Assembly: GCF_021026295.1 (NCBI RefSeq)
Contig: NZ_JAJNDA010000007.1
Coordinates: forward strand, 186,001-250,000
DNA length: 64,000 nucleotides
Source: Actinomycetospora soli
GTDB lineage: Bacteria; Actinomycetota; Actinomycetes; Mycobacteriales; Pseudonocardiaceae
Reading direction: 5' to 3'
The position numbers and the translations under genes are program-made. The notes below the pieces were generated by a model. It was not told where the DNA came from. It ran no database searches and saw only the letters and a list, made by a program, of their open reading frames with translations. Position 1 is the first letter of the stretch, and every line of letters begins with the position of its first letter. This document shows, piece after piece, positions 2,661 through 62,811 of the stretch.

Positions 2661-5435
2661 CTATCCGGTGTTGCGCATTCCGGCGGAGATGCCGTTGACC
2701 GTGAGCAGCAGGGCCCGCTGCAGGTCGGGGTCCGGTTCGTCGACCGTGCGGCGTTCGGCGAGCGCGTGCACCTGCAGGTGGTGCAGGGGCTCGAGATAGC
2801 TCTCGCGCACCTCGAGCGTCTGACGCAGCAGCGGGTTGTTCGCGACCAGGGCGTCGCCGGAGGAGAGGGCGAGGACCTCGCGCAGCGTGAGCGCGTGCTC
2901 GGTCTTGATGATCTCGAAGACGTCCTGCAGCTCGGGGTCGACCAGCTCGGCGACGTAGAAGCCGGCGATCCGCATGTCCGTCTTGGCCAGCGTCATCTCG
3001 ACGTTGGAGAGCAGGTTCGCGAAGAACGCCCAGTCCCGCATCTCGTCGATGACCTCGCCGTAGCCCGCCTCCCGGGCGGCTCTCAGCCCCGAGCCCAGCC
3101 CGAACCAGCCGGGGACGATCATGCGGGTCTGGGTCCAGCCGAAGACCCACGGGATGGCGCGGAGGTCGTCGAGCGAGGCGTCGCCACCGGCCCCGGGCCG
3201 CTTGCCGGGGCGGGACCCGACGTTGAGCATCGACAGCTCGTCGACGGGCGTCGCCTGGGTGAAGAAGTTCGGCAGGCCCTCGTGGCCGACCAGCGCGCCG
3301 TAGGCCTCCTGCGCGGCGTCGCTGATGACGTCCATCGCCTCGTCCCAGCGCTCCAGCTGGTCGGCGGGCACGCGGCTCGTCTGGTGCAGCAGCGTCGCCT
3401 CCAGCACCGCCGAGAGCATGATCTCGAGGTTGTCCTCGGCGAGGGAGGGCAGCGAGTACTTGTCGGAGATGACCTCGCCCTGCTCGGTCACCTTCATCAC
3501 CGCGTCGACGACGCCGTGCGGCTGGGCCGCGATCGCCTCGCCCGCCGGGCCGCCGCCGCGCCCGACCGAGCCGCCGCGACCGTGGAAGAGCCGCAGCCGC
3601 ACGCCGTGCTTGGCCGCGACGTCCCGCAGCTGGCGCTGCGCGGTGTGGATGGACCACTGGCTCGTCGTGATGCCGGCGCCCTTGTTGGAGTCCGAGTAGC
3701 CCAGCATCATCTCCTGCACGTCGCCGCGGGCCGCCACGATCGCGCGGTACGACGGGTCGGAGAGCATCCCGTCGAGCAGGTCGCCGGAGATCTTCAGCTC
3801 GGTCGCGGTCTCGAACAGCGGCACGATGTCGAGCGACGAGCGGGCGCCGTCGACGTCGAGCTCGATCAGCCCCGCCTCGCGGGCGAGCACCGCCACCGCG
3901 AGGACGTCGTCGACGTTCTGGGCCATCGACATGACGTAGGTGTGCAGGGCCTCCTCGCCGTAGGTCTCCTGCACCTCGCGGATCGTGTCGAAGACGTCGA
4001 GGGTCTCCCGGAAGCTGTCGTCGCCGATGTCCTGCCGGTTGCGCCGCGGGGTCAGCGCCCGGCGCCCGGCGAGCTCGCGGGACAGCACCTCGATCCGGCC
4101 GTCGTGGTCGAGCTCGCCGTACGGCGTCTCCAGCTCCCCGAGCCGGTCGAACAGTGCGGCGAGCGCGGTGTGGTGGAGCTTGGTGTGCTCGCGGACGTCG
4201 ACCGAGGCGAGGTGCAGACCCACCGCGTTGGCCGTGCGCATGACGTCGCGCAGCATCCCGTCGGCGATGCGGTCGCCCTGGTGGGAGCGCAGCGAGCGGT
4301 CCATCACCTCCAGGTCGGCGAGGTACTCCGCGGAGCCCAGGTAGTCCCGGCCGGGCACGTGCGGGGAGCCGTCGAGGTAGCGGGCCCGGGTGTTCTCCAG
4401 CCGCGCGTACACGTACGAGCACTTGAGGCGGTAGGGCTCCTCGGCGTTGAGCCGGACGAAGCGGTCGTGGATCTCGGGCAGGTGGCGGCGGTCGCGGGCC
4501 AGGCTGCGCCGCAGGTCCTCGCTCACGCCCACCAGCCGCGTCGACACCGAGAGCTCCTGCACGAGCTCCTCGATCAGCCCGATCTGGATGCGCACCCCGC
4601 GGTCGGCGTAGACCGCCATGGCGTCGCGGGTGAGGTCGGCGGTGACGTTCGGGTTGCCGTCCCGGTCGCCGCCGACCCAGCAGCCGAGCACGAGCGGGCG
4701 GGCACCCTCGGGCAGGTGCAGCCCGACGCGGTCGAGCTCCTCGTCGAGCACGGTGAGCACCTCGGGCACAGCGTGCCGCCCCAGCTGCTCCAGGTAGTAG
4801 GAGACCGAGCGGGCCTCGTCGAGCACCGTCGGCCGCTCGGGGCGGATCTCGTCGGTCTGCCACATGAGGTCGACGAGCCGCGCGAGCTTCGTCTCGGCCA
4901 CGTCCTCGGACAGCCCGTCGCCGAGGATGCCCGCGATCGCCCGCAGCTTGCCGAGCACCGACTGCCGCTGCGCCTCGGTGGGGTGGGCGGTGAAGGTCGG
5001 CTTGAGCTGCAGGCGGGAGAGCGCGGTCGCGACCTCGTCGGGGTCGGCCTCGGTGACCAGCCGCTCGGCGAGCAGGTGGATCGGGCCCTCGCCGCCCTCG
5101 TGCACCGCCTGCCGCTCCGACGCCCGGTGCGTCTGCTCGGCGACGTTGGCCAGGTGGAAGTACGTGGCGAAGGCCCGCGCGAGGACGGCGGCGGTGCCGG
5201 GGTCGAGCGACGCGAGCAGGTCCCGGATCCCGGTGTCGCCGCGCTCGGGCACCTCGCGGACGAGGTGCCGGACCTTCTCGACGAGGTCGAGCATGTCCTC
5301 GCCGTTCTGCCGCGCCAGGGTCTTCCCGAGCAGGGTCGAGAGGCGCCGGATGTCGGTCCGCAGCGCGGAGTGCTCGGACTCGGAGGACACGCTGGTCTCG
5401 GTCGACACGGAGTCGGAACGGCGGCCGGTGCTCAT
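2661..5435 (-). CDS. ppc: Phosphoenolpyruvate carboxylase
   Basis: Anaplerotic enzyme converting PEP and bicarbonate to oxaloacetate. Diagnostic motifs are present in order: FTAHPTEAQR with the catalytic His, VGGDRDGNPNVT, LGYSDSNKGAG, FHGRGGSVGRGGGP and the invariant C-terminal RNTG. The 924-aa length is normal for bacterial PEPC. The ATG at 5435 is chosen because a GAGGAG ribosome site lies about 10 nt upstream; longer in-frame extensions have no family similarity. The N-terminal Ser/Thr-rich 25 residues are poorly conserved in the family. It is divergent from the glutathionyl-hydroquinone reductase gene across a 343-bp region. Confidence 0.97.
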   Translation of the reverse strand: MSTGRRSDSVSTETSVSSESEHSALRTDIRRLSTLLGKTLARQNGEDMLDLVEKVRHLVREVPERGDTGIRDLLASLDPGTAAVLARAFATYFHLANVAEQTHRASERQAVHEGGEGPIHLLAERLVTEADPDEVATALSRLQLKPTFTAHPTEAQRQSVLGKLRAIAGILGDGLSEDVAETKLARLVDLMWQTDEIRPERPTVLDEARSVSYYLEQLGRHAVPEVLTVLDEELDRVGLHLPEGARPLVLGCWVGGDRDGNPNVTADLTRDAMAVYADRGVRIQIGLIEELVQELSVSTRLVGVSEDLRRSLARDRRHLPEIHDRFVRLNAEEPYRLKCSYVYARLENTRARYLDGSPHVPGRDYLGSAEYLADLEVMDRSLRSHQGDRIADGMLRDVMRTANAVGLHLASVDVREHTKLHHTALAALFDRLGELETPYGELDHDGRIEVLSRELAGRRALTPRRNRQDIGDDSFRETLDVFDTIREVQETYGEEALHTYVMSMAQNVDDVLAVAVLAREAGLIELDVDGARSSLDIVPLFETATELKISGDLLDGMLSDPSYRAIVAARGDVQEMMLGYSDSNKGAGITTSQWSIHTAQRQLRDVAAKHGVRLRLFHGRGGSVGRGGGPAGEAIAAQPHGVVDAVMKVTEQGEVISDKYSLPSLAEDNLEIMLSAVLEATLLHQTSRVPADQLERWDEAMDVISDAAQEAYGALVGHEGLPNFFTQATPVDELSMLNVGSRPGKRPGAGGDASLDDLRAIPWVFGWTQTRMIVPGWFGLGSGLRAAREAGYGEVIDEMRDWAFFANLLSNVEMTLAKTDMRIAGFYVAELVDPELQDVFEIIKTEHALTLREVLALSSGDALVANNPLLRQTLEVRESYLEPLHHLQVHALAERRTVDEPDPDLQRALLLTVNGISAGMRNTG

Positions 5436-9677: not shown

Positions 9678-11477
9678 GTGCTTCCCGACGACGGGTCCTC
9701 CCGGACCGGCGTGCGCGGGCTCGACGGCCCGGCGGCGGACCTGATCGCGACGTTGGCGGTCTGGGGCGGCGCCGCGAGCGTCGAGCACCTCGCCGCGGTG
9801 TCGGGGCTGCCCGCCGGGTCGATGCTGCGCGCGGTCCGCGAGGCCGTCGACGCGGACGTGCTGATCTGGCGCGACGACGAGCGGCTCGAGTTCGTCCGCA
9901 CCGAGGACCGGGAGACGGCGTACGCGGCGATCCCGCGGCCGCTGCGCACGCTCCTGCACTCGGCGCACGCGGCCGCACTGGAGAGCGCCGACGCCGTGTC
10001 CCGGGCCGGCACGCTCGCCGCGGCGGGTCGGGTCGACGAGGCGGTCCGGGTCGCGCGCGGGGAGCTCGCCGCGTCCGAGGACCCGGCCGTGCGGGCCCGC
10101 ATCCGCTCGTTCCTGATCTTCACCCTGATCAGCGCGGCGCGGGTGGACGACGCGCGGGCCGAGATCGACGCGGTCCTCGCCCTCCCGCTGCCCCGCGAGC
10201 AGCAGGACCGGTTGACCCACCTGCGCACGTGGGTCGACCTGCTGGCGGGCGACGGCCCGGTGCCCACCGCCGACCCGGTGGAGGGGGACCCGACCGCGCT
10301 GCTCAACGCCGCGAGCGCGTCGTTCCTGCGCGGCCGGACCGTCCGGGCCACCGAGCTCGCGGTGGCGTCCGTCGAGGCGCGGGCGGGGGAGTCGTGGGCC
10401 GAGGCCGCGACGGCGACGGTGTGGCCGGCCTGGTGCCGCCTGCTCGCCGAGGGGCCCGCGGCCGCCGAACGCGACGCCCGCGACGTGCGCGACCGGGCCG
10501 CCCGCGCCGGGCACCTGTGGCTGGGGCCGTACCACGACTTCGTGTCGGCCCGGGTGCACGCGGTCGCCGGGCGTTGGCCGGACGCGTCGGCCGAACTCGA
10601 CGCCGGCCTGGCCGCCGCGGCGGCCACCGGGACCGGGTGGACCTCGCTCGCGGTAGCCGGCCGCGCCCGGCTGGACCTCGACCGCGGCGACACGACGACG
10701 GCGGCCGCCGCGCTCGAGGGCGCGGCCGGACTGACCGAGCAGTTCGGCCTCCCCACGCTCGCGATCGCCGCCGCCCTGCTCGACGAGTCCCGGGGAGCAC
10801 CGGAGGTCGGTCTGCGTCGCGCCGACGATGCGTGGCGCGCGGCGCACCGGGACGGCCGGATCGCGGCGGTCGCGATGTCCGCGACGGACGTGACCCGCCT
10901 CGCCCTGCGCGCCGACCGGCGCGACGTGCTCGACGACCTCGCTGCCGCGCTGCGCGCCGATCCGCCCGAGGGCGTGCTGCTCCGGCCGCTCGTCGACCTC
11001 GTCGTCGGGCTCGCCGGGGACGACCTGGCCGCCGTCCTCGCCGCGGTCGACGCGCTGGAGAGCGCCGGGGACGTCCCGGGCTCGATGACGGCCCGTGAGG
11101 AGGCGGCCTGCCTGGCGGCGCGTCTCGGCGACGCGGACGCGGCCCGCGCCCTGGCGGCCCGCGTGCGGGAGACGGCCGACCGGCTGGGTGCCGACGGGGT
11201 GTCCCGACGGCTGGCCAACCGGCTGCGGGCCCTCGGCGTACGACTCGGCGCGGGCGGCCGCCGGGGACGCCCCCCGGAGGGCTGGGACGCGCTCACCCCG
11301 ACCGAGCGCCGGGTCGCCGAACTCGTCGCCGAGGGCGTGGCGGGCCCGGAGATGGCCGTGCGGCTCGCGATCTCGCCGCGCACCGTGCAGACCCACGTCT
11401 CGAACGCGCTGCGCAAGCTCGGCCTGCGCACCCGGGTCGAGCTCGCGACGACGGCGGCACGGCACCACCCGGGCTGA
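9678..11477 (+). CDS. LuxR-family transcriptional regulator, large (TPR/MalT-like middle)
   Basis: Regulator of 599 aa. The C-terminal 65 residues form a LuxR-type HTH (LTPTERRVAELVAEGVAGPEMA, then RTVQTHVSNALRKLG). Residues about 20-75 read like a winged-helix segment of LuxR/AAA-type regulators, and the middle is an Ala-rich helical repeat region like the TPR-type regions of LAL proteins. No Walker A motif is visible, so the AAA ATPase module of true LAL regulators is absent. The GTG start overlaps a copy of the dispersed repeat, which encodes the first residues (LPDDGS); the real start could be further in. Confidence 0.85.
   Translation: MLPDDGSSRTGVRGLDGPAADLIATLAVWGGAASVEHLAAVSGLPAGSMLRAVREAVDADVLIWRDDERLEFVRTEDRETAYAAIPRPLRTLLHSAHAAALESADAVSRAGTLAAAGRVDEAVRVARGELAASEDPAVRARIRSFLIFTLISAARVDDARAEIDAVLALPLPREQQDRLTHLRTWVDLLAGDGPVPTADPVEGDPTALLNAASASFLRGRTVRATELAVASVEARAGESWAEAATATVWPAWCRLLAEGPAAAERDARDVRDRAARAGHLWLGPYHDFVSARVHAVAGRWPDASAELDAGLAAAAATGTGWTSLAVAGRARLDLDRGDTTTAAAALEGAAGLTEQFGLPTLAIAAALLDESRGAPEVGLRRADDAWRAAHRDGRIAAVAMSATDVTRLALRADRRDVLDDLAAALRADPPEGVLLRPLVDLVVGLAGDDLAAVLAAVDALESAGDVPGSMTAREEAACLAARLGDADAARALAARVRETADRLGADGVSRRLANRLRALGVRLGAGGRRGRPPEGWDALTPTERRVAELVAEGVAGPEMAVRLAISPRTVQTHVSNALRKLGLRTRVELATTAARHHPG
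9682..9697. repeat. Dispersed repeat copy (TTCCCGACGACGGGTC)
   Basis: Exact 15-bp core TTCCCGACGACGGGT plus C, lying in codons 2-7 of the LuxR-type regulator. It is part of the dispersed repeat family described under findings. Confidence 0.7.
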
Positions 11478-28051: not shown

Positions 28052-28366
28052 GGGGGTCCTACCTCCGTCGCTGGGGAGCGGTGCCGCCGCGGGAGTCGGG
28101 GGCATCCCGCGGCGGCGCAGCCAGAACGGTAGGGAGCACGGGGTCGCCGACCCCGCTTTGCTGAGAGCGAGCGGCCGGACACACCGTGCAGGGGCTCGTC
28201 CGACGCGGCGAACGGCGGCAGGTTCTTCCGGACGGCGGGTGCGGTTGCTCCGTCTGCCGAGGTCACGGTTCAGCAACGGTGTCGCGGGACCGCTCGTCGC
28301 GAGACGGGCCCGACCGGCAGCGACCGGCACCGACCCGTCGTCGGGAAGGACCCCGGAACACGACAA
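28052..28366. other. Intergenic DNA with a dispersed repeat
   Basis: A 315-bp stretch with no convincing gene, between the start of the secreted-repeat gene and the tRNA terminator. It contains the best copy of the dispersed repeat (28326-28347) and should contain the promoter of the secreted-repeat gene. The frame is open through this region, but its composition looks non-coding. Confidence 0.55.
28326..28347. repeat. Dispersed repeat, 22-bp form
   Basis: Begins GGCACCGACCCGTCGTCGGG and continues AA. All 22 bases recur, inverted, at 43258-43279. Confidence 0.8.
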
Positions 28367-28396: not shown

Positions 28397-28400
28397 GTTG

Positions 28401-28472
<72 letters not shown>

Positions 28473-28473
28473 G

Positions 28474-28545
28474 AGGCGGAGGCGGGAATCGAACCCGCGT
28501 ACAGGGCTTTGCAGGCCCTTGCCTAAACCACTCGGCCACTCCGCC
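28474..28545 (-). tRNA. tRNA-Cys (GCA)
   Basis: Minus-strand cloverleaf with acceptor GGCGGAG/CTCCGCC, anticodon loop containing TGCAAA (anticodon GCA) and the tRNA-Cys discriminator U. Adjacent to tRNA-Val with one base between. Confidence 0.95.
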
Positions 28546-28571
28546 GGGATCCTCGGAGGCCTGCCTCCCCG

Positions 28572-28644
28572 AGCGGACGACGGGACTCGAACCCGCGACC
28601 CTCACCTTGGCAAGGTGATGCGCTACCAACTGCGCTACGTCCGC
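28572..28644 (-). tRNA. tRNA-Gly (GCC)
   Basis: Minus-strand cloverleaf with acceptor GCGGACG/CGTCCGC, anticodon loop TTGCCAA (anticodon GCC) and T-loop GGTTCGAGTCC. First gene of the Gly-Cys-Val cluster. Confidence 0.95.
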
Positions 28645-31404: not shown

Positions 31405-31476
31405 GGGCGATTAGCTCAGGGGGAGAGCGCTTCGTTCACACCGAAGAGGTCACTGGTTCGATCCCAGTATCGCCCA
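31405..31476 (+). tRNA. tRNA-Val (CAC), AICE integration site
   Basis: Cloverleaf with acceptor GGGCGAT/ATCGCCC, anticodon loop TTCACAC (anticodon CAC) and T-loop GGTTCGATCCC. No encoded CCA. The 3' 44 nt belong to the attachment core, so the gene is restored by element-borne sequence after integration. It therefore remains functional. Confidence 0.95.
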
Positions 31477-31482
31477 CGCAGG
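31433..31482. repeat. attL core, 50-bp direct repeat
   Basis: From the anticodon arm of tRNA-Val(CAC) to 6 bp past its end. Identical over 50 bp to 43146-43195. The integrase gene lies just inside, as is usual for tRNA-site tyrosine recombinases. Confidence 0.93.
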
Positions 31483-31526
31483 AAGGCCCTGGTCAGGGAC
31501 TCGCGAGAGTCGCCGGCCAGGGCCTT
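31483..31526 (+). terminator. Element-borne terminator after tRNA-Val(CAC)
   Basis: Stem AAGGCCCTGG (31483-31492) with CCAGGGCCTT (31517-31526) followed by TGTCGTGT. It lies inside the element, so it replaced the host terminator, which is now at the attR side. Confidence 0.75.
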
Positions 31527-31573: not shown

Positions 31574-32782
31574 TCAGAGGTCGTCCCCCTCGTCGTCGCC
31601 GAGCGCGGCGAGGATGCGGCTCGGGTCGGCGGTCCGGCGGGTGTAGAGGTCGAGCGTGGTCGAGGCCCGCTCGTGACCCATGACACGTTGGACCATGTTC
31701 GGCGGGACGCCGTCGTCGACCAGCCACGTCGCGTAGGAGTGGCGCAGGTCGTGGAAGCGCAGCCCGCCGTGGTGGCGCCGGGCGATCTCCATCACGGCCT
31801 GGTACTCGGTCTTGGTCTCCAGTGACTGCTCGTCGCCGTCCTTGTCGCGCCACCGGGCCTCGAACTTCTTCTCGCCCAGCTCCCTCACCTCGCCGATGAA
31901 CCCGGCCCGCACGAGCGAGGGACGCCAGACCCGGGCGCGGAACGCGGTCCGGCCGATCGGGCCCTGAATCTCGTTGGCGAAGACCGGCGAGGTGGACGGC
32001 GAGGGCCAGCGCTCGACGTGCTCGGCGACCAGACGGCGGACCCAGCCGGGGATCGGGACGTCGCGCCGTCCGGCGACCGACTTGGGGAAGGGCTTGAACG
32101 ACCGGTGCCCGGCGACCTCCACGACGGTGCGGACCACCCGCAGGACACCCGCCTCCAGGTCGATGGCGTCGTCCATGAGCCCGGCGACCTCGCCCCACCG
32201 CAACCCGCAGCCGGCGGCCGTGGCGATCAGCGCGCGGTGGCGCTCGGGGACCTTCGGGAGCAGGACGTGGCGCAGGGTCGGCCGGCTGATGATCTGCTCG
32301 TCGGTGTCGGTCTTGCGGCGCTTCGGGACCCGGACGTCGAGCGCGGGGTTGAAGGCGATCAGCCGGTTACGGACCGCCGAGCGCAGCACCGCCGAGGCGA
32401 GCCGATGAGCCTCGGCGACCGTGGCCCGGGCGCGCCGGTGGCCCAGCTCGGTCACCCACGCCTGCACCGACAGGTGGTCGATCTTGGCGAGCGGCCAGGA
32501 CTCCCACTGCGGCAGCACGTGAGTGCGCATCACCGAGCGGTCCCGGGCAGCGGTGGTGTGCTCGGTGTTCCACGAAGCCATCCAGGCGGCTGCGTGCTCG
32601 CCGAAGGTCATCCGGCCCGCGTGCGGGGACACGTAGAGACCCCGGCTCTTCGAGGACTCGGTCTCGGCGAGGAAGGCGCTGGCGTCCTTCTTCGTCGTGA
32701 AGACCTTGGAGCGCTGCGAGCCGGTGGGGTCGCGCCAGAACGCCTTCCACTTCCCGGTCTCGGTCTTCCGGACGAAGCCCAT
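31574..32782 (-). CDS. int: Tyrosine site-specific integrase
   Basis: Phage-type tyrosine recombinase, 402 aa. The SAM-like core-binding domain is about residues 65-150. The catalytic domain shows GLRWGEVAGL (first Arg about 193), HDLRHSYATW (HxxR about 341), GHERASTTLDLYTR with His and the nucleophilic Tyr about 378. An N-terminal AP2-like arm domain (KAFWRDPTGSQRSKVF) is present. It catalyses recombination between the 50-bp att cores. Its ATG overlaps the xis stop by 1 nt (TGATG). Confidence 0.95.
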   Translation of the reverse strand: MGFVRKTETGKWKAFWRDPTGSQRSKVFTTKKDASAFLAETESSKSRGLYVSPHAGRMTFGEHAAAWMASWNTEHTTAARDRSVMRTHVLPQWESWPLAKIDHLSVQAWVTELGHRRARATVAEAHRLASAVLRSAVRNRLIAFNPALDVRVPKRRKTDTDEQIISRPTLRHVLLPKVPERHRALIATAAGCGLRWGEVAGLMDDAIDLEAGVLRVVRTVVEVAGHRSFKPFPKSVAGRRDVPIPGWVRRLVAEHVERWPSPSTSPVFANEIQGPIGRTAFRARVWRPSLVRAGFIGEVRELGEKKFEARWRDKDGDEQSLETKTEYQAVMEIARRHHGGLRFHDLRHSYATWLVDDGVPPNMVQRVMGHERASTTLDLYTRRTADPSRILAALGDDEGDDL

Positions 32783-43145: not shown

Positions 43146-43195
43146 CGTTCACACCGAAGAGGTCACTGGTTCGATCCCAGTATCGCCCACGCAGG
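43146..43195. repeat. attR core, 50-bp direct repeat
   Basis: Copy of 31433-31482, containing the anticodon-loop to 3'-end part of tRNA-Val(CAC). It lacks the 5' half, so it is not a functional tRNA. Confidence 0.93.
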
Positions 43196-43196
43196 C

Positions 43197-43228
43197 AGGC
43201 CCGGTTCCCGTTCCAGGGAGCCGGGCCT
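43197..43228 (+). terminator. Original host terminator of tRNA-Val(CAC)
   Basis: Stem AGGCCCGGTTCCC (43197-43209) with GGGAGCCGGGCCT (43216-43228), one G-T pair, followed by TCGTCG. It sits at the tRNA-proximal edge of attR and would follow tRNA-Val directly in an element-free chromosome. Confidence 0.75.
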
Positions 43229-43628
43229 TCGTCGTTCCCGGGGGCGGTCCCCGCTCGTTCCCGACGACGGGTCGGTGCCAATTCTCAGTTGCATCGGGCG
43301 CCCGCTGGGGCTCTCCGCGCCACTGACATCCGGTCGCCACCGACGTCAGTGGCATCGGGGGCACTCGGAACGCCCCTGTGCCACTGGAGTCCCGGCCGTG
43401 CCGCCGGGTGTCCCGCGGACCGGATGTCCGCCGACCACGGGAGGCGCCGGAGGCGACCACGAGGTCGACACGTCGGACATGCCGGCCTCCCCGATCACCG
43501 GCCCGATCCGGCGACGTCCCTGCCATCGGACGCCGGCAACGACGAGGGCCGGAGCGGACAGGTCCGGACCACCTGATTGTGCACGACCGACTTCCGTCCG
43601 GACGGTTGAACGCTCTAGTATCTGTCTC
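43229..43628. other. Intergenic DNA after attR
   Basis: About 400 bp without a convincing gene. It holds the 22-bp dispersed repeat (43258-43279), a short inverted repeat CCACTGAC/GTCAGTGG (43320-43327 and 43345-43352), and presumably the promoter of the 79-aa gene at 43629. Confidence 0.5.
43258..43279. repeat. Dispersed repeat, 22-bp form (inverted)
   Basis: Reverse complement of the copy at 28326-28347 over all 22 positions. Confidence 0.8.
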
Positions 43629-44818: not shown

Positions 44819-45460
44819 TCAGGGCCGCCGGGCCGGGAGCTCCGTCAACGCGCGGAGCTCCTCGGCCAGCCGGTCGCGGTGCTCGTCGACGATGCCCGAC
44901 GACGGGTCGGTGCCGTCCGACCAGGCCAGCGCGTCCGTGAGGACGCGGAGCGCCGCGTTCACCGCGGCCGCGCGGACGAGGACCGTCAGGTCGTGCTCGG
45001 GCAGGCCGAGACGGCGGCCGAGCACGGCCGCGAACACGGGCTCGGCCCGCTCGTGCAGCACCAGCCACGTGGCGCGCACGCCCGGCTCGTCGCGCGACAT
45101 CCGCACCACCGCGAGCACGGCCTCGAGGTCCTCGGGCGCCACGACGTAGGCCGAGCGCAGGTGCTCGCCGAGCTCGTCGGACGGCTGCCACGAGCGCAGG
45201 ACCTCCACGAACGCGTCGAGCGAGACCGACAGTAGCGGCTCGACGCAGGCCTCCTTCGAGCGGAAGAGCCGCCAGAGCGTGCGCTCCGAGACCCCGGCGG
45301 CACGGGCGATCTGCTCGCCGGTGGTCTCGGCGACCCCGTGCTCGCGGAACAGCGCCACGGCCTGCCGGGAGATCGCCAGGCGTTGCCGTCGCCGCTGCTC
45401 CTCGGTGACCGGCGGTCGGCCGCGGCGGCCCGCCGACCCGTCGTCGGGAGCTGTGGTCAT
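44819..45460 (-). CDS. TetR-family transcriptional regulator
   Basis: Repressor of 213 aa. N-terminal HTH (about residues 18-62: RLAISRQAVALFREHGVAETTGEQIARAAGVSERTLWRLFRSKEA) and a helical ligand-binding domain. It is divergent from a P450 gene with a palindrome between, so it probably controls that P450. Copies of the dispersed repeat lie within both its N-terminal codons (PDDGS) and its C-terminal part (DPSSG). ATG at 45460 preferred over 45466. Confidence 0.88.
   Translation of the reverse strand: MTTAPDDGSAGRRGRPPVTEEQRRRQRLAISRQAVALFREHGVAETTGEQIARAAGVSERTLWRLFRSKEACVEPLLSVSLDAFVEVLRSWQPSDELGEHLRSAYVVAPEDLEAVLAVVRMSRDEPGVRATWLVLHERAEPVFAAVLGRRLGLPEHDLTVLVRAAAVNAALRVLTDALAWSDGTDPSSGIVDEHRDRLAEELRALTELPARRP
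44895..44914. repeat. Dispersed repeat, 20-bp form, inside the TetR gene
   Basis: Reverse complement is GGCACCGACCCGTCGTCGGG, identical to the 28326 copy over 20 bp. Encodes part of the C-terminal region of the TetR protein. Confidence 0.75.
45435..45450. repeat. Dispersed repeat, partial, at TetR start
   Basis: GACCCGTCGTCGGGAG, encoding APDDGSA just after the TetR start codon. Confidence 0.6.
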
Positions 45461-55490: not shown

Positions 55491-56990
55491 TCACGCCGAC
55501 ACGGCGGGCTCCGGCTCGCCGGTCGGCGCCGGCTCGCGGCGCGGCCGCACGAGCGAGATCAGGCCCCCGACGACGAGCGTGATCACCACCCCGAGCGGCA
55601 CGAACCAGGGGAACGCCAGGGGCGAGCCGTCGATCGAGATCCCGAGCGCCGCCCAGCCGACCCCCACCAGCGTCGCGACGAACGCCACGAACGCGGCCAC
55701 GCCGTCGGCCCGGCGCACGATCAGCCCGAGCAGGAACGCCCCGAGCAGCGCGCCGTAGGTGTACGACGCGATCGAGAGGCCCAGCTCGACCACCGGGTTC
55801 TCGGTGGTGGTGAACAGCGACGCGAACCCCACCATCACCAGCGCCCACACGCCGGTCATCCACCGCGCGACCCGCAGCATCGTCTGCTCGCCCGGGCGCC
55901 AGTTGCCCCACGACTGCACCAGGTCGGCCAGCGTCGAGGTCGACAGCGAGTTCAGCGCGCTGGACAACGACCCCATCGTCGCGGCGAGGATGCCGGCCAC
56001 GAGCAGCCCGGACAGACCCATCGGCAGGTCCCGCAGGATGAACTCGCCGAACACCTGGTCGCTGGTCAGCCCCAGCGAGGCGAGCGGCGCACCCCCGTTG
56101 CGGGCCCACAGCAGCGCCCCGACCAGGGAGAACAGCGCGAACTGCACGCCGATCGCGACGGCCGAGCCGATCATCGCCTTCCGCCCGTCGGACAGCGACC
56201 GGCAGGAAAGCACCCGCTGCGCGATGAGCTGGTCGGATCCGTGCGAGCCCATCGTCAGCAGCGCGCCACCCACGATCGCGGTGACGAACGCGTAGGGGCT
56301 CGTCAGGATCGGCTTGGAGAAGTCGAACACCGTGAACTTGCCGGCGTCCCACGCGGCGGCCCAGCCGCCCGCCCCGACCTGCAGCGAGAGCACCACCACG
56401 CAGATCACGGCGCCCACGAGGTAGAGCCCCATCTGCAGGAAGTCGGTCCAGACGACGGCCTTGATGCCGCCGACGTAGGTGTAGGCCACGGTCACCGCGG
56501 TGATCGCGAGGACGATGACGAAGTAGTTGACGTCGAGCCCGAACTCGGCGAGCAGCAGCTTGATCGGGATGGCGCCGGCGAAGAGCCGCACCCCCTCGGC
56601 CAGCAGCCGCGTGACCAGGAACGTCAACGACGCGAGGCCCTGCGTGTGCCGGCCGAAGCGTTCGCCGAGGTACTGGTAGGCCGACACGAACCCGCCGCGG
56701 AAGTACAGCGGCAGCAGCACGAAGGACACGAGGATGCGGCCGACGAGGTACCCGACGGCGAGCTCGACGTAGGAGAACGACCCGCCGTAGGCCACGCCCG
56801 GCACGCTGATCACGGTGAGGGTGGAGGTCTCGGTGGCGACGATCGAGAACATGACCGCCCACCACGGCAGCGACCGCTCGCCGGTGAAGTAGTCGGTGGC
56901 CGAGCGCTGCCGCCCGGAGAGCTTCAGCCCGATCACCGCGATCGCCACGAGGTAGGCGACGATGACGGCCAGGTTGACGACGTCGTGCAT
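55491..56990 (-). CDS. Sodium:solute symporter (SSS family)
   Basis: Na+-coupled transporter of 499 aa with about 13 helices. Family landmarks: TDYFTGERSLPWWAVMFSIVATETS, GGIKAVVWTDFLQMGLYLVGA and GLLVAGILAATMGSLSSALNSLST. It is the last gene of the amino-sugar operon, starting 8 nt after the SIS gene. Its likely substrate is therefore an amino sugar such as MurNAc or GlcNAc; that is inference from context. ATG at 56990 with AGGAGCC upstream, overlapping the previous stop. Confidence 0.9.
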   Translation of the reverse strand: MHDVVNLAVIVAYLVAIAVIGLKLSGRQRSATDYFTGERSLPWWAVMFSIVATETSTLTVISVPGVAYGGSFSYVELAVGYLVGRILVSFVLLPLYFRGGFVSAYQYLGERFGRHTQGLASLTFLVTRLLAEGVRLFAGAIPIKLLLAEFGLDVNYFVIVLAITAVTVAYTYVGGIKAVVWTDFLQMGLYLVGAVICVVVLSLQVGAGGWAAAWDAGKFTVFDFSKPILTSPYAFVTAIVGGALLTMGSHGSDQLIAQRVLSCRSLSDGRKAMIGSAVAIGVQFALFSLVGALLWARNGGAPLASLGLTSDQVFGEFILRDLPMGLSGLLVAGILAATMGSLSSALNSLSTSTLADLVQSWGNWRPGEQTMLRVARWMTGVWALVMVGFASLFTTTENPVVELGLSIASYTYGALLGAFLLGLIVRRADGVAAFVAFVATLVGVGWAALGISIDGSPLAFPWFVPLGVVITLVVGGLISLVRPRREPAPTGEPEPAVSA

Positions 56991-56998
56991 CCCGGCTC

Positions 56999-58000
56999 CT
57001 ACTCGGTTTCCGTGATCTTGTGCAGCCCGCCGGGGGCGTCCACGTCCACCCCGCGCGCGAGCGCGAGGCGCCATGCGAGCTTCTGGGCGGGGACGACGGC
57101 GACGATCGGGGAGACGAGGCCCGGCAGCGGGCCGGGCAGGTCGGGCCCGGTCACGACGACGGGTGCGCCGCGCTCGCGGAGCTCCGCGCGCAGGTCGAGG
57201 ACCGACGCGCTCGCGGCCTCGTCGGGTGCGACGAGCAGGACCGGGGTCGCGGGGCCGACCGCGCCGATGGGGCCGTGGCGTAGGTCGGCGGGGGAGAAGG
57301 GCGTGACCAGCGACCCGGTCAGCTCGGTCAGCTTGAGCGCGGCCTCGTGCGCGGTCGCGAGGTTGACCCCGCGCCCGACGGTGACCCCGCGCCACGACGC
57401 CCCGAACACTTCGACGGCCTCGTCGACGTCGACCCCCAGCGCCCGCTCGACGAGGTCCGGGACGCGGTCGAGGTCCGCGAGCAGGGCCTCAGCGGCGGGC
57501 TCGGGGGCGAGGCCGGCGGCGAGGACGGCGACGGCGGCCAGCGAGGCGGTGTAGGTGCCGGTCGCGGCGACCGAGCGCTCCTCGCCGACGTGCAGCGGCA
57601 GGATCAGGTCGGCCTGCGCGGCGAGGTCGGACGCGGGGTCGTTCGTGACGGCGAGGGTGGGCGCGCCGCGCTCGCGGGCGTCGCGGAGCACCGCGACGAT
57701 GTCCGGGGAGCGGCCGGACTGCGAGATCCCGACGACGAGCCGGCGCCAGACGGTGGGCGCGGCCCCGTACGCGGTGAGCAGGCTCGGCGTCGCGAGCGTG
57801 ACCTCCCGCTCCGCGACCAGCGGGACGAGGTAGCGGGCGTAGCGCGCCGCGTTGTCCGAGCTGCCCCGGGCGGCGATGACGACCCCGCAGGTCGCGGCGG
57901 CCAGCTCGCGCACGGCGGCGGCCGCGGCGGCACCCGTCGTCAGGAAGGAGCGCAGGGCGGCGGGCTGGGCGTGGAGCTCGGACTCGAGCCGGGACGTCAC
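56999..58000 (-). CDS. SIS-domain amino-sugar phosphate deaminase/isomerase (NagB-II/GlmS-like)
   Basis: Two tandem SIS domains, 333 aa. N-terminal SIS: IAARGSSDNAARYARYL, GISQSGRSPDIVAVL. C-terminal SIS: TVGRGVNLATAHEAALKLTELTG, SPADLRHGPIGAV. It matches the isomerase half of GlmS without its glutaminase, as in NagB-II and AgaS. It should convert GlcN-6-phosphate to Fru-6-phosphate and ammonia, replacing the classical NagB that is missing here. GTG at 58000 overlaps the nagA stop. Confidence 0.85.
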   Translation of the reverse strand: MTSRLESELHAQPAALRSFLTTGAAAAAAVRELAAATCGVVIAARGSSDNAARYARYLVPLVAEREVTLATPSLLTAYGAAPTVWRRLVVGISQSGRSPDIVAVLRDARERGAPTLAVTNDPASDLAAQADLILPLHVGEERSVAATGTYTASLAAVAVLAAGLAPEPAAEALLADLDRVPDLVERALGVDVDEAVEVFGASWRGVTVGRGVNLATAHEAALKLTELTGSLVTPFSPADLRHGPIGAVGPATPVLLVAPDEAASASVLDLRAELRERGAPVVVTGPDLPGPLPGLVSPIVAVVPAQKLAWRLALARGVDVDAPGGLHKITETE

Positions 58001-59112
58001 CGGTCCACCTCCTCGCCGCCGAGCAGCACCCGCGTGACGGCGAGCGCGTCGTCGAGCACGGTCACGTCGGCGACCCCGCCCGGGCGCAGCACCCCGAGGT
58101 CGGGGTGCGGGCGGTGGGCCGGGCCGACGAGCCGGGCGGGCGTCGCGGTGGCGGCGACGAGGGCGTCGACGAGGCCGAGCCCGGCAGTGACCGCGACCCG
58201 CACGCACCCCGCGAGGGTGGCGGCGCTGCCGGCGAGGGTGCCGTCGGGGTTGCGGACGGCGCCGTCGGCGAGGGTGACCTCGACGTCGCCCAGGCGGAAC
58301 GTGCCGTCCGGCATGCCCGCGGCGGCCGTCGCGTCGGTGATCAGCGCCCAGCGGCCGCGGGCGGCGCCGGCGGTGACACGGAGGACGTCCGGGTCGAGGT
58401 GGTGGCCGTCGGCGATGAGCGTGACCACGGCGGCCGGGTGGGCGAGGGCGGCCACGGCGAGCCCGGGGGCGCGGTGGTCGAAGCCGGACATCGCGTTGAA
58501 CAGGTGCGTCGCACCCGCGATCCCGGCGTCGAACCCGGCGCGGGCCTCGGCGGCCGAGGCGTCGCTGTGCCCGGCCATCACGGTGACCCCCGCCCGCAGC
58601 GCGACGGCGAGGACGGCATGGGCGCCGTCGAGCTCCGGGGCGATCGTCGTGAGGGCCACCAAGCCCGCCGTCAGGAACGCGCCGAACGCCGCGGGGGCGG
58701 GCGGGCGCAGGAACGACGGCGGGTGCGTGCCGGGTCGCTTCGGGGACAGGAAGGGGCCCTCGACGTGGGCGCCGAGCAGGCGGGCCCCGCCCGGCGCCGG
58801 GCGGGCGGCGTCGAGGACGCGCAGGGCGGTCGTCGTGGTGTCGGGCGCCGCGGTGATGACGGTCGGGGCGACCGCCGTGACCCCGTCGCGGGCCAGCGCC
58901 GCGCGGAACGCGTGCACCTCGTCGGCGTCGGTGACGGCGGTCAGGTCGACACCCGCGTAGCCGTTGCACTGGACGTCCACGAGTCCGGGCACCGCGATCG
59001 CGCCACCGGCGGCCGGCGGGAGCCCGACGGCGTCGATCCGCCCGTCGACCACGGCCACGTCACCGGGGTGCAGCACGCCGCCCACGAGCGCCGCGGACAC
59101 GCCGAGCCTCAC
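57997..59112 (-). CDS. nagA: N-acetylglucosamine-6-phosphate deacetylase
   Basis: Amidohydrolase-fold deacetylase, 371 aa. Motifs: PGLVDVQCNGYAGVDL, GAHVEGPFLSP, MAGHSDAS, HLFNAMSG, ADGHHL and the catalytic Asp in LITDATAAAG. It removes the acetyl group from GlcNAc-6-P, giving GlcN-6-P for the SIS enzyme downstream. GTG at 59112 overlaps the AnmK stop (GTGA). Confidence 0.93.
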   Translation of the reverse strand: MRLGVSAALVGGVLHPGDVAVVDGRIDAVGLPPAAGGAIAVPGLVDVQCNGYAGVDLTAVTDADEVHAFRAALARDGVTAVAPTVITAAPDTTTTALRVLDAARPAPGGARLLGAHVEGPFLSPKRPGTHPPSFLRPPAPAAFGAFLTAGLVALTTIAPELDGAHAVLAVALRAGVTVMAGHSDASAAEARAGFDAGIAGATHLFNAMSGFDHRAPGLAVAALAHPAAVVTLIADGHHLDPDVLRVTAGAARGRWALITDATAAAGMPDGTFRLGDVEVTLADGAVRNPDGTLAGSAATLAGCVRVAVTAGLGLVDALVAATATPARLVGPAHRPHPDLGVLRPGGVADVTVLDDALAVTRVLLGGEEVDR

Positions 59113-60242
59113 GACCGCACCTCCAGGGCGTGGACGGCCGCGACCGGCTCGGGCAGCCGCAGCGGACGGTGGCCGCTGCTGAGGCGGCCCAGGACGCGCG
59201 GGGTGGCCGACCCGGTGGCGCCGGGGAGCACCCCGGGCACGCCGTGCCAGGTGAGGGCGCCGAGCAGGGCGGTCAGGACGGCCTCCTTCGCGTCGGACGG
59301 CAGGCCGCGCTCCTCGGCGGCCACGAGCGGGACCGGGTCGAGGGCCGCGGCGAGCGCGGCGCGCAGGACCGGGTTCGCCATGCCGCCACCCGCGCCGACG
59401 ACCTCGACGGCCCCGTGCGCGCGGCAGGCGTCGGCGACGGTGCGGGCGGTCAGCGCGACGAGGGTGGCCGCGAGGTCGGCGGCCGCGATCCCCGGCGCGG
59501 CGTGCGCGACCGCGGCGTCCAGGGCGGCCGCGGTGAACAGCTCGCGCCCGGTCGTCTTCGGCGGCGGCGCGGCGTAGTACGGCTCGGCGAGCAGGTGGTC
59601 GAGCAGCGCGGCGTGCACGGTCCCGGCCGCCGCGAGGGCCCCGTCCACGTCGTACGCGGTCCCGGTCGCCCGGTGTGCGACGACGTCGAGCCAGCAGTTG
59701 GCGGGCCCCGTGTCGAAGGCGGTGGTCCCCGCCGGCGCGACGACGGTGACGTTCGCGATCCCGCCGAGGTTCAGCGCGATGCGGGTCTCCGGGCCGGCCA
59801 GCCAGAGGGCGTCGAGCGTGCTCGCCAGCGGGGCGCCGTGCCCGCCGGCCGCGATGTCGGTCGAGCGCAGGTCGCTGACCACCGGCACGCCCGTCGCCTC
59901 CGCGATCCACGCGGGCTGACCGAGCTGGAGGCCGCCGGTCGCCCGGCCGTCCTCGATGCCGTGGAAGACGGTCTGGCCGAGCCAGGCGACGAGGTCGGCG
60001 TCGTGCCCGCGAGCGGCCGCCGCGGCCGCCCGCCCGACCTCGTGGTCGAGCGCCGCGATCTCGCCGACCGTCGTCGTCGCGGGCGGCAGCACGGCGAGCA
60101 GGCGTTCCTGCAGGCCCTCCGGCCACCCGACGGCCCCGTGGTGGCGCACGGCGAGCGTCGTCGTCGGGCCGACCTCGACCTCGCACACCGCGACGTCCAG
60201 GCCGTCCGCCGACGTCCCCGACAGCATCCCCACGACGATCAC
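59109..60242 (-). CDS. anmK: Anhydro-N-acetylmuramic acid kinase
   Basis: Sugar kinase of the ASKHA superfamily, 377 aa. Start region GMLSGTSADGLDVAV is the AnmK signature. Then GQTVFHG, VSDLRSTDIAAGGHGAPLAS, LNLGGIANVT, FDTGPANCWLD and VVGAGGGMANPVL. It phosphorylates 1,6-anhydroMurNAc, the product of peptidoglycan turnover, to MurNAc-6-P, the substrate of the adjacent MurQ domain. GTG start at 60242 overlaps the previous stop. Confidence 0.93.
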   Translation of the reverse strand: MIVVGMLSGTSADGLDVAVCEVEVGPTTTLAVRHHGAVGWPEGLQERLLAVLPPATTTVGEIAALDHEVGRAAAAAARGHDADLVAWLGQTVFHGIEDGRATGGLQLGQPAWIAEATGVPVVSDLRSTDIAAGGHGAPLASTLDALWLAGPETRIALNLGGIANVTVVAPAGTTAFDTGPANCWLDVVAHRATGTAYDVDGALAAAGTVHAALLDHLLAEPYYAAPPPKTTGRELFTAAALDAAVAHAAPGIAAADLAATLVALTARTVADACRAHGAVEVVGAGGGMANPVLRAALAAALDPVPLVAAEERGLPSDAKEAVLTALLGALTWHGVPGVLPGATGSATPRVLGRLSSGHRPLRLPEPVAAVHALEVRS

Positions 60243-62056
60243 CGGCCCACGGCCCCTCGGACCGAGCCCGCCGTCGTCAGCCGCTCGCGCGCCGCGGCGG
60301 AGTCCACCCCGGCGAGCAGGGACACGACCGCGGCGGCGACGTCGTCGCCCGCGGCCCGCAGCGCGGCGCGGGCCGCGTCCTCGTCCACCCCGGCGGCGTC
60401 GCGCACGATCCGCTCGGCGCGGCGGCGCAGCTTCGCGTTCGTCACGCGCACGCCGACCATCCACGGCCCGTAGGTCGCGCCGGACCGGACCATGGCCGCC
60501 GTCGTCAGCGTGTTCAGGGCGATCTTCTGCGCCGTCCCGGCAGCCAGGCGGGTCGAGCCCGCCAGCACCTCCGGGCCGGTGACCAGCTCGATCGCGACGT
60601 CTGCCAGCGCCGCTATCGGGCTCCCGGCCGTGTTCACGACGGCGACCGTGGTCGCCCCGAGCGCGCGGGCCGCGGTCAGCGCGCCGAGCACGTACGGCGT
60701 CCGGCCCGAGGCGGCGACGCCCACGACGACGTCGTCGGGCCCGACCAGGGCGTCCTCGACGTCCGCGCGCCCCGCCGCGTCGTCGTCCTCCGCGCCCTCG
60801 ACGGCCGCGTCCGCCGCGTCCCGGCCGCCCGCGAGCAGGGCGATCGCGCGGGACGGGTCGAGCCCGAAGGTCGGCGGCAGCTCCGCGGCGTCCTGCATCG
60901 CGAGGCGTCCGGACGTCCCGGCGCCGGTGTAGACCAGTCGCCCGCCCCGCCGGAACGCCGCGCCGAGGAGGTCGGCGGCGTGGGCGAGGTGCGCCGTGGT
61001 CGCGGCGACCGCACCGGGGGCAGCGGACTGCCCGTCGACCAGGCGCGCGACGAGGTCGTGGGTGGGCAGCGCGTCGAGCTGCTCGGACCCGGGCCGGACA
61101 CCCTCGGTGGGGAGGCGGTCGGTGTCGGCGGCGGGGCCCGTCCCGGGGTCCCGTTCCCGACGACGGGTCACGGCCGGTTCGTGCGCGGTGGTCGCGTCCG
61201 CGGCGAGGGCGACCAGGCCGTCGAGCGCGTCGCCGCGGGGCTCGTGCAGGGGCAGGCCGGCGGCGCGCACCCGGTCGGCGAGCGGCCCGGCGAGCCCGCC
61301 GACGAGGGCCACCCCCGGTGCCGGCCATGCGTCACTGCCGGCACCGGACGCCAGGGGAGCCACATCGTCGGCAGGGCCGGCCGCCGCCGCCCGCGCCGTC
61401 GCCACGAGGTCCGCCACCGCCGCGTCCACGATCCGCCCCGCCACGGCGTCACCCGCGTCGGCCGCCTCCAGCACGGCCGGCGCGAACGCGGCGAGCTCGG
61501 CGGGCGTGCCGGGCCGCGCGGCGAGCACGTCGCGCGCCGGGCCCGCCAGCGTCGTCGCGGGCCCCGACCCCTCGAGGGCGCGCAGGGCCGCGCGCAGGCC
61601 CTGCTGCCCGATCGTCGCGCCGCCGCCGGCGTCGCCGAGGAGCAGCCCGTGCCCGTCGACGCGGCGCACCGTCCCGGCGTCGTCGACCCCGAGCGCCACC
61701 GCCCCCGTCCCGACCGCCAGCACCACGCCCGCCCCGTGCGCGCCGAACGCGCCCGCGTGCCAGGCGACGACGTCGGACGTCACGGCGACGGCGTCCGGGT
61801 CGTGACCGTCCCAGCCGGCGGTCAGGGCCTCGGCCAGCTCGACCGCCGCCGCGGGCCGCGTCAGCGCCCCGGGCACGCCCACGGCCAGCGTCCAGGGCGG
61901 CGCCGGCGGCGTGCCCACGGCCCCACGCAGCACCGCGGCCACCCCGGTGGCGCCGCCGGGGTCGCCGAGACCGGCGCCCGTCGTCGTCGGGAAGCGCCGA
62001 TCGCCGACCGCGACGCGGGCCCCCGAGCGACCCAGGTCGACCGCGACCACCGTCAT
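60239..62056 (-). CDS. murQ: Fused amino-sugar kinase - MurNAc-6-P etherase (MurQ)
   Basis: Single 605-aa protein. Residues 1 to about 295 are a BadF/BadG-type kinase: VAVDLGRSGARVAVG, VLAVGTGAVALG and GLLLGDAGGGATIGQQGL. Residues about 310-605 are a full-length MurQ: RLVYTGAGTSGRLAMQDAAELPPTFG with the SIS phosphate site, and IALNTLTTAAMVRSGATYG. The first half should phosphorylate free GlcNAc or MurNAc, the second cleaves the lactyl ether of MurNAc-6-P to GlcNAc-6-P. Most MurQ are free-standing. The linker (about 296-301) is encoded by a dispersed-repeat copy. ATG overlaps the GntR stop. Confidence 0.9.
   Translation of the reverse strand: MTVVAVDLGRSGARVAVGDRRFPTTTGAGLGDPGGATGVAAVLRGAVGTPPAPPWTLAVGVPGALTRPAAAVELAEALTAGWDGHDPDAVAVTSDVVAWHAGAFGAHGAGVVLAVGTGAVALGVDDAGTVRRVDGHGLLLGDAGGGATIGQQGLRAALRALEGSGPATTLAGPARDVLAARPGTPAELAAFAPAVLEAADAGDAVAGRIVDAAVADLVATARAAAAGPADDVAPLASGAGSDAWPAPGVALVGGLAGPLADRVRAAGLPLHEPRGDALDGLVALAADATTAHEPAVTRRRERDPGTGPAADTDRLPTEGVRPGSEQLDALPTHDLVARLVDGQSAAPGAVAATTAHLAHAADLLGAAFRRGGRLVYTGAGTSGRLAMQDAAELPPTFGLDPSRAIALLAGGRDAADAAVEGAEDDDAAGRADVEDALVGPDDVVVGVAASGRTPYVLGALTAARALGATTVAVVNTAGSPIAALADVAIELVTGPEVLAGSTRLAAGTAQKIALNTLTTAAMVRSGATYGPWMVGVRVTNAKLRRRAERIVRDAAGVDEDAARAALRAAGDDVAAAVVSLLAGVDSAAARERLTTAGSVRGAVGR
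61153..61169. repeat. Dispersed repeat at the kinase-MurQ joint
   Basis: GTTCCCGACGACGGGTC contains the exact 15-bp core. On the coding strand it encodes TRRRE in the linker of the fusion. Confidence 0.75.
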
Positions 62057-62802
62057 CGGGGATCCGTGGAGATCATGACGGCGGCCGGGACCGTGGCGTC
62101 GCCGGGCGGGATGATGTCCATCTCGATGAGGTACCGGTCGCCGCGCGCGAACGACTCGACCCGCTCGATCACCTCGCCGCGGTGGTCCCGCGACGTCCGG
62201 ACGAACTGCAGCGCGGCCGAGCCGGCGGGCACCCCGAGCAGCTCCGCGTCCCGCGCCGCGAGCACCACGGGCGCCACCGACTGCGTCCCGGAGCGGATCC
62301 GGCGGTCGAAGCGCTCGGCGAGGATCTCGTAGTAGGAGGACGGGCCGTCGAGGTCGTCGCCGGTGAGGCCGGGGACGCGGGCGGCCGGGACGTGCAGGGT
62401 CTCGAGGGTCATGGGCTCGCCGTCCGCGAGCCGGACGCGGCAGACCCGCAGCACCGGTTCCCCGCCGGGCATCTCCAGCCGGGCGGCGAGGTCGGTGTCG
62501 GCGATGACGGTGTCCCACCACAGCAGGCGCGACGACGGCTCCAGGCCGCGGCGGCGCATGTCGTCGCCGAAGGAGGTGGCCATGAGCGGCTGCGCGACGG
62601 CTGGGCGGCGCACGAACGTGCCCGCGCCGTGGCGCCGCTCGACGATGCGGCGGGCCATGAGCTCCTCGAGCGCCTTGCGCACGGTCGCCCGGGAGACCCC
62701 GAACCGGGTGGACAGCTCCCGCTCACCTGGGAGCATGGCGCCCGGACCGAGTTCGGCGCACAGCGCGGCGACCTTGGCGCCCACTTCCGTCGATCGTGTC
62801 AC
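62053..62802 (-). CDS. GntR/HutC-family regulator of the amino-sugar operon
   Basis: GntR-family repressor of 249 aa, DasR/NagR-like. The wHTH is at about residues 15-70 (PGERELSTRFGVSRATVRKALEELMARRIVERRHGAGTFV). The UTRA effector domain covers about 85-240 (RLLWWDTVIADTDLAARLEMPGGEPVLRVCRVRLADGEPMTLE) and in this family binds GlcN-6-P or GlcNAc-6-P. GTG at 62802 is preferred; another at 62808 is possible. Its stop overlaps the kinase-murQ start (ATGA). Confidence 0.9.
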   Translation of the reverse strand: MTRSTEVGAKVAALCAELGPGAMLPGERELSTRFGVSRATVRKALEELMARRIVERRHGAGTFVRRPAVAQPLMATSFGDDMRRRGLEPSSRLLWWDTVIADTDLAARLEMPGGEPVLRVCRVRLADGEPMTLETLHVPAARVPGLTGDDLDGPSSYYEILAERFDRRIRSGTQSVAPVVLAARDAELLGVPAGSAALQFVRTSRDHRGEVIERVESFARGDRYLIEMDIIPPGDATVPAAVMISTDPR

Positions 62803-62811
62803 CGGCACGGG

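Follow-up and report, generated by a model that had tools for sequence, protein, structure and literature searches.

A dispersed 15-bp word at the joint of a kinase–MurQ fusion in Actinomycetospora soli

Within a 64-kb stretch of the Actinomycetospora soli genome (contig NZ_JAJNDA010000007.1, positions 186,001 to 250,000; hereafter the window, in whose numbering coordinates are given), one gene fuses a BadF-type sugar kinase to MurQ, an N-acetylmuramic acid 6-phosphate (MurNAc-6-P) etherase, and its linker codons carry an exact copy of a 15-bp word, GACCCGTCGTCGGGA, that is dispersed through the genome. The initial annotation had read this repeat as an element that entered between two adjacent genes, or as their old spacer, and thereby fused them. 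Comparison with relatives led us to a different account, which we consider likely: the fusion arose long ago and does not depend on the word, and the copy at the joint belongs to a lineage-specific word, present about 260 times in the genome, that originates in place. By itself, the fusion adds modestly to what is known of MurNAc salvage; the dispersed word is more surprising and merits its own study.

The word and the joint of the fusion

The linker copy lies at 61155-61169 on the minus strand, spanning the last base of the V296 codon through E301, which bears out the annotation's observation that the linker codons reproduce a dispersed 15-bp core. Four other exact copies occur in the window: just upstream of a gene (9683-9697, minus strand), in intergenic DNA near a tRNA cluster at 28400-28644 (28332-28346, plus strand), in a further intergenic region (43259-43273, minus strand), and at or immediately ahead of the start of a minus-strand gene that is TetR-like by eye (45435-45449, plus strand). 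Matches with up to two mismatches numbered 16 in the window, against a mean of 1.69 and a maximum of 6 in 100 shuffles. The genome as a whole contains 262 exact copies, 131 per strand, and none of the reversed control word, a strong over-representation of one exact word of the kind that marks DNA uptake sequences.

This abundance is confined to part of one genus. Across 18 Actinomycetospora genomes, exact counts were 262, 247, 223, 199 and 190 in five word-rich members, 31 and 31 in two other fusion-bearing genomes and 12 in a third word-poor genome (G203), while ten had 0 or 1 copy. Among 190 further genomes of the family, 13 had one copy and 177 had none; among 395 others in a 396-genome sample of the phylum, 12 had one copy, one had three and the rest lacked it. 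Among viral contigs, a 14-mer core occurred in at least 120 stretches, with one match each among those listed, which looks like chance in a set of that size. Every word-rich genome carries the fusion, an association we read as shared descent, not cause.

The copies are not chiefly intergenic, as the initial annotation had supposed. We examined 60 of the 262 (30 within 464 kb plus the first 30 listed elsewhere) against genes called by a simple codon-usage script, and 44 fell in predicted genes and 16 between them, where non-coding DNA makes up 12.3% of the 464 kb. Genic copies occurred in sense (24) and antisense (20) orientation and in all six frames, encoding peptides as varied as DPSSG, GPVVG, TRRR, PDDGS, SRRRV and PTTG; the 16 intergenic copies lay in tandem (11) or divergent (5) gaps and never in convergent ones. 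In the word-poor genomes G200 and G202, 23 of 30 copies examined (of 62) were likewise genic. Codon usage does not explain the excess: synonymous shuffling of 410 genes, preserving proteins and overall codon usage, yielded a mean of 0.07 copies and at most 2 in 60 shuffles, compared with 20 observed. The peptide TRRR was written ACCCGTCGTCGG in 4 of 11 cases (0.05% expected; CGT accounts for 4.6% of arginine codons), and PDDG was written CCCGACGACGGG in 18 of 25 (10.8% expected).

At the fusion itself, the word falls in the kinase's C-terminal peptide and precedes the first MurQ similarity by 12-14 residues; its placement "exactly at the joint" was thus roughly right, though it belongs slightly upstream. 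The linker word is exact in four of the seven Actinomycetospora genomes that carry the fusion, all four word-rich, and has one mismatch in the fifth word-rich genome (G075); it is absent from A. endophytica and sp. TBRC 11914, whose linkers read HEPFVTRRAAP and HEPAVVRRRTP. A second set of fusions, in three genomes of another genus of the order (g47, family f2), bears the linker peptides HEPHVIRV or HEPYVIRV and has no word in the locus. The pattern HExxVxR is a conserved kinase C-terminal peptide found also in word-free relatives, including a separate kinase (locus L038) ending in HEQLVLR, and the joint peptide is thus a conserved kinase end.

The kinase and murQ also exist apart. In three loci from the family of A. 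soli (L045, L061 and L038), the kinase gene immediately precedes murQ and is read in a different frame; GntR and AnmK genes flank the pair, and the word is missing from each of the three. The initial annotation had suggested looking for separate adjacent genes in relatives, and these loci, with a matching operon, supply them; because of them, fusion of neighbouring genes is plausible. That the word made the fusion is nonetheless most improbable. The split loci, together with the word's exact or near-exact presence at the joint of all five word-rich genomes, would suit such an origin, but fusions exist without the word, some with a like linker peptide, no alignment displayed a clean insertion, and word copies share almost no flanking sequence. 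Because fusions and split loci occur word-free and those homologous sites that could be scored differ by substitutions, the word at the joint seems to have had no causal role in the fusion.

We regard translation of the two halves as separate products from an in-frame GTG at V296 as very unlikely. The GTG is present in 5/5 word-rich genomes, yet no Shine-Dalgarno-like sequence precedes it by eye, and the codon is GTC in A. endophytica and TBRC 11914. Its context resembles the murQ starts of split loci (GTGACC in L045, where this start overlaps the stop of the kinase gene, and GTGAGC in L061; the fusion also has GTGACC at V296); the idea that it is a fossil murQ start was dropped, as HExxVxR is already present in g47 fusions (HEPHVIR) and in the separate kinase of L038 (HEQLVLR).

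The fusion is also found where the word is not. It is present in 7 of 18 Actinomycetospora genomes, and in an eighth (G203, 59% complete) the kinase half runs off a contig end; the remaining 10 gave no match or weak SIS-domain matches only. Those 10 appear to lack any MurQ, and the other eight carry the fused form or part of it. In TBRC 11914 (L066, L110), the first ~50 kinase residues lie in another frame, from either a sequencing error or a real early frameshift. In the phylum sample, three other genomes, all from the nine sampled of g47, matched the fusion over residues 3 to 603 or 604. A one-frame read-through was found at 13 of 76 loci tested: nine Actinomycetospora records, which include three strains counted twice, and four of Verrucomicrobiota type. 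One of the latter is labelled Polynucleobacter; its MurQ is almost identical to that of a Verrucomicrobiota entry, and the locus is probably mis-binned. A distant, Verrucomicrobiota-like fusion also lies on an 18-kb contig (L434, G048:C298) of a fragmented assembly from the A. soli family, which may be a contaminant.

The Verrucomicrobiota and g47 fusions share the A. soli layout of one frame with kinase first and MurQ second; they differ in that the Verrucomicrobiota proteins have other linkers and a distant position in a quick MurQ tree, and the g47 loci lack the word. Fused proteins with an unrelated linker in distant groups were what the initial annotation had named as contradicting its account, and the Verrucomicrobiota loci provide them. 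In the quick tree, the two actinobacterial fusion groups are adjacent (support 90), and a locus where no kinase was found (L037) sits beside the g47 group (support 86); because of L037, the tree is compatible with either one or two actinobacterial origins. Fused forms in Actinomycetospora, g47 and Verrucomicrobiota suggest that such fusions probably arose more than once. The kinase–MurQ fusion is old, fairly ordinary and independent of the word.

Probable origin of the word in place and its possible readers

The word has a 15-16 bp consensus, [GC]ACCCG[T/C]CGTCGGGA(A), outside which the 60 examined copies have little in common: an A directly after it (35/60) and, weakly, a C before (38/60). 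Single-letter variants of the 16-mer are tolerated at letter 1 (G or C), position 6 (T, C or G) and letter 16. Its CCCG and CGGG arms look dyad-like; yet position 9 is almost only T and position 6 shows no preference for the complementary A, and because of these preferences the word appears to be read directionally, without dyad symmetry and without the palindromic form of the highly iterated palindromes (HIPs) of cyanobacteria. Near-matches form a graded cloud. In 584 kb of the A. soli genome, 16-mer sites with 0, 1, 2, 3 and 4 mismatches numbered 18, 39, 69, 107 and 303, against means of 0, 0.05, 0.93, 14.2 and 137 and maxima of 0, 2, 5, 77 and 475 for 40 scrambled words, so that mismatched forms are over-represented up to 3 mismatches; the word-rich genomes G042 and G098 agree. 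The tested stretches of G200, G202 and G151 had no site with 0 or 1 mismatch, and 7, 2 and 0 sites with two. Gradual over-representation by mismatch load is reported for uptake sequences and other constrained oligonucleotides (PMC1939737). One tandem array was seen in G098 (L423, about 3854-3916, G098:C1), with four head-to-tail 16-nt units that are word copies with 0-2 mismatches.

Site-by-site comparison suggests how copies arise. Of the 18 genus genomes, 15 have a YibE/F-like gene whose 18-letter stretch GACCCGTCGTCGGGAACG is the same in each of the five word-rich members while adjacent synonymous sites differ; the ten others (word-poor G200 and nine that are word-free or nearly so) use other codons at equal spacing. 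We tested 63 word sites from ~1.6 Mb of word-rich sequence, and a partner was found for 37. Between word-rich genomes (95 comparisons), the partner was identical in 43, differed by substitutions only in 36 and was gapped in 16; against word-poor genomes (18 comparisons), none was identical, 7 differed by substitutions only and 11 were gapped; against the word-free genome, 5/5 were gapped, all at the YibE/F site, itself of equal length. No clean 15-16 nt insert appeared among the 118 comparisons, 32 of them gapped in the word, and one pair had a 21-nt gap over the word. No element extends beyond the core either, and a dispersed insertion of repetitive extragenic palindrome (REP) or miniature inverted-repeat transposable element (MITE) type thus finds no counterpart here. 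Between word-rich genomes, the word is retained more often than control sequence: in the 79 ungapped comparisons it was identical in 43 (54%), compared with 1217 of 6775 control 15-mers (18%) in the same alignments, and a smaller earlier count over all 20 ordered word-rich pairs found 36 identical out of 74, where controls ran at 0.155-0.240. For scorable sites, these alignments indicate a word that is tied to its lineage, forms by substitution and persists more often than background sequence. The word would form by base substitution at near-matching sites, and at the joint it would have done so within codons for a pre-existing kinase peptide, HEPxVTRR.

Something in these cells may recognise the word, which appears to behave like a genomic recognition word of the uptake sequence, HIP1 or Chi class. 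Given the turnover of copies, their occurrence at any place and on both strands, and their graded near-match cloud, we tentatively favour molecular drive by sequence-preferring DNA machinery, most like DNA-uptake bias, as what spreads it, while regarding this as far from established; turnover, free placement and strand, directionality and the graded cloud fit drive at near-matches as uptake bias would produce it. With the same caution, we suggest that an Actinomycetospora subclade may have evolved a 15-16 bp recognition word together with in-place drive and a dedicated reader, which could be an uptake system or a protein that binds chromosomal DNA, as an actinobacterial counterpart of uptake sequences.

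Several results count against this proposal or blunt its support. At four mismatches the word (303 sites) falls below the highest scrambled word (475). The gapped alignments (16/95, 11/18 and 5/5) are not cleanly scorable, the seven scored word-poor comparisons stem from three loci only, and a minority of sites may have originated by insertion. Retention comparisons are non-independent, the same sites recurring between genomes, and some pairs do no better than control (G042 to G098, 1/5 identical against 0.24). ComEC was found in 16 of 18 genus genomes, the misses being 59% and 83% complete, and in 15/15 good ones; because it is present in word-free genomes too, it neither supports nor refutes uptake. 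Close pairs in G042 are about as many as chance predicts (13 pairs spaced under 60 nt, from 526 sites carrying at most two mismatches, against ~10 expected by simple arithmetic) and give uptake no specific support. Two exact inverted pairs in that genome fold as hairpins of at least 18 pairs in gaps between predicted genes; frequent inverted pairs acting as terminators are a trait of DNA uptake sequences.

The main rival to uptake-like drive is a chromosomal DNA-binding protein (nucleoid-associated, segregation, repair or global regulator) whose binding site is kept by selection at each position, a possibility we hold to be real if somewhat doubtful. It would account for the intergenic enrichment (16/60 against 12.3% non-coding DNA), for the restriction of those copies to tandem and divergent gaps, and for retention at some sites whose flanks have diverged. 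It sits less easily with 44 of 60 copies within predicted genes in six frames, with partner substitutions in 36 of 95 comparisons, and with the asymmetry of recognition, position 6 accepting T, C or G and position 9 almost only T. Nor does the complete genome G042 point to a role in segregation-type orientation: over the 100 sites listed from a subset of 102 (the genome has 223), spacing was near-random, and the strand bias along replichores that marks FtsK-orienting polar sequences (KOPS) was absent, with a half-arc asymmetry of 16 that 352 of 500 shuffles also reached. A mutational bias, whether from methylation-linked repair or from another source, has been proposed for cyanobacterial HIP1 and could likewise generate a graded cloud, an in-place origin and a lineage-wide gain; we think it unlikely, since HIPs, as far as the source consulted in part describes them, are palindromes tied to methyltransferases (PMC4390886), and the A. 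soli word is a non-palindromic 15-16 nt sequence.

The fused protein, its operon and other repeats

The fusion is encoded on the minus strand from 62056 to 60239 as 605 residues without a stop, and the initial annotation's single frame holding both enzymes stands, with completeness of the kinase half resting on alignment with the other fused proteins, as the Pfam match spans only part of it. This half (61157-62056, about residues 1-300, ending in the conserved HEPxVTRR) belongs to the BadF/BcrAD family (BcrAD_BadFG, PF01869, residues 93-221, 48.3 bits against a gathering threshold of 31.5, E 1.3e-12). Its best solved kinase match is the MurNAc/N-acetylglucosamine (GlcNAc) kinase 8zo3 (residues 94-223, E 2.7e-7), and it falls far below the cut-off of the NagK_SO3507 equivalog (36 bits against 370). 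The MurQ half (60251-61120, residues 313-602) matches MurNAc-6-P etherase across the domain (PRK05441, 341 bits, cut-off 168, E 4.9e-102), as well as PRK12570 (314.9 bits, above the cut-off of 255), the TIGR00274 equivalog (277 bits, below the cut-off of 302) and the solved MurQ structure 4s12 (E 1.3e-65). Catalysis in E. coli MurQ depends on Glu83 and Glu114. Glutamates E392, E420 and E423, numbered along the fusion, are invariant across the seven fused proteins; the DAAE that contains E392 aligns to DASE in the solved MurQ. An AlphaFold2 model built from seven close sequences was not used (mean pLDDT, the per-residue confidence score, 54.4; pTM, the predicted template-modelling score, 0.35).

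The fusion is the second gene of a likely peptidoglycan-sugar operon, all on the minus strand and identified by family matches: a GntR/UTRA regulator (62053-62808), the fusion, the anhydro-MurNAc kinase AnmK (59109-60242), the GlcNAc-6-P deacetylase NagA (57997-59112), a SIS protein (56999-58000) whose best match, NagB-II deaminase, scored 174.8 bits and so below the curated cut-off of 430, and a sodium/solute symporter of the SSF family (55491-56990). Each junction from the regulator through the SIS gene, including both ends of the fusion, is a 4-nt overlap, and the symporter starts 8 nt past the SIS gene; the six genes likely form one operon. A. chiangmaiensis, A. termitidis and sp. NBRC 106378 have matches to all six at their fusion loci; within the fetched loci, no match was found to the SIS gene in A. 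endophytica, or to the SIS gene or AnmK in TBRC 11914. Judged by family membership, the protein is most likely a bifunctional MurNAc-salvage enzyme: the kinase half would make MurNAc-6-P, and perhaps GlcNAc-6-P too, the MurQ half would strip lactate from MurNAc-6-P to give GlcNAc-6-P, and AnmK, NagA and the SIS protein would feed and continue the path.

Other repeats were seen alongside the word. Two 62-nt copies of a tRNA 3′ end, 95% identical, lie at 31433-31494 and 43146-43207 (tRNA-Val, 31405-31477) and bracket ~11.7 kb with an integrase-like gene, recognised by eye, at 31574-32782 on the minus strand; this stretch, which contains no exact copy of the word, looks like an integrated element. 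In several species, long palindromic intergenic hairpins starting GTG make up a family particular to that species (L289-L298, L299-L308, L309-L314 and L321-L326; G042, G098, G075 and G200), and in G042, G098 and G200 some of these are flanked by GGCC..GGCC mini-hairpins. In A. soli, GGTCGCTATAGCGA-type repeats number 12 in 464 kb, both strands counted.

Relation to known systems

Among the matches listed, literature searches showed no precedent for either finding. No MurQ–kinase fusion turned up in the titles and abstract openings of the best 10-25 of up to 32,086 matches, which is weak evidence of novelty; in the portions available of the main texts of PMC13041923 and PMC5790795, "MurQ" occurs and neither "fused" nor "fusion" does. 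The same kind of search (titles and abstract openings) found no such word in actinobacteria or Actinomycetospora, again weak evidence of novelty, and no paper was found for the exact word. For the fusion, the closest parallel is Tannerella forsythia, in which, by the part of the report consulted, genes for a sodium-symporter-superfamily transporter, MurK and MurQ adjoin (PMC5790795). The two reactions are those expected of the fusion and the operon is similar; the difference is that MurK and MurQ are separate proteins in T. forsythia, whereas kinase and etherase are one protein in A. soli.

For the word, comparison turns on a small set of systems. To our knowledge, genomic words of such strength are well known only in few groups, and their origin is debated among drive, selection and repair bias. 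The present case adds one genus with word-rich, word-poor and word-free genomes, in which the gain of a word can be followed at individual sites, and differences in gene content across Actinomycetospora offer a way to look for its reader. DNA uptake sequences are non-palindromic, as is the A. soli word. Those of Neisseriaceae and Pasteurellaceae, as presented in the parts of two reports used here, share with it an over-represented word, lineage dialects and graded near-matches (PMC3630211, PMC1939737); the A. soli word differs in being longer (15-16 nt), in its ~190-260 exact copies compared with thousands in Neisseria, and in its actinobacterial host. HIP1 and the alternate HIPs of cyanobacteria, from partial sight of the source, are likewise genome-wide and lineage-dependent, the word varying by lineage, and are palindromic and linked to methyltransferases (PMC4390886); unlike them, the word of A. 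soli is long and non-palindromic.

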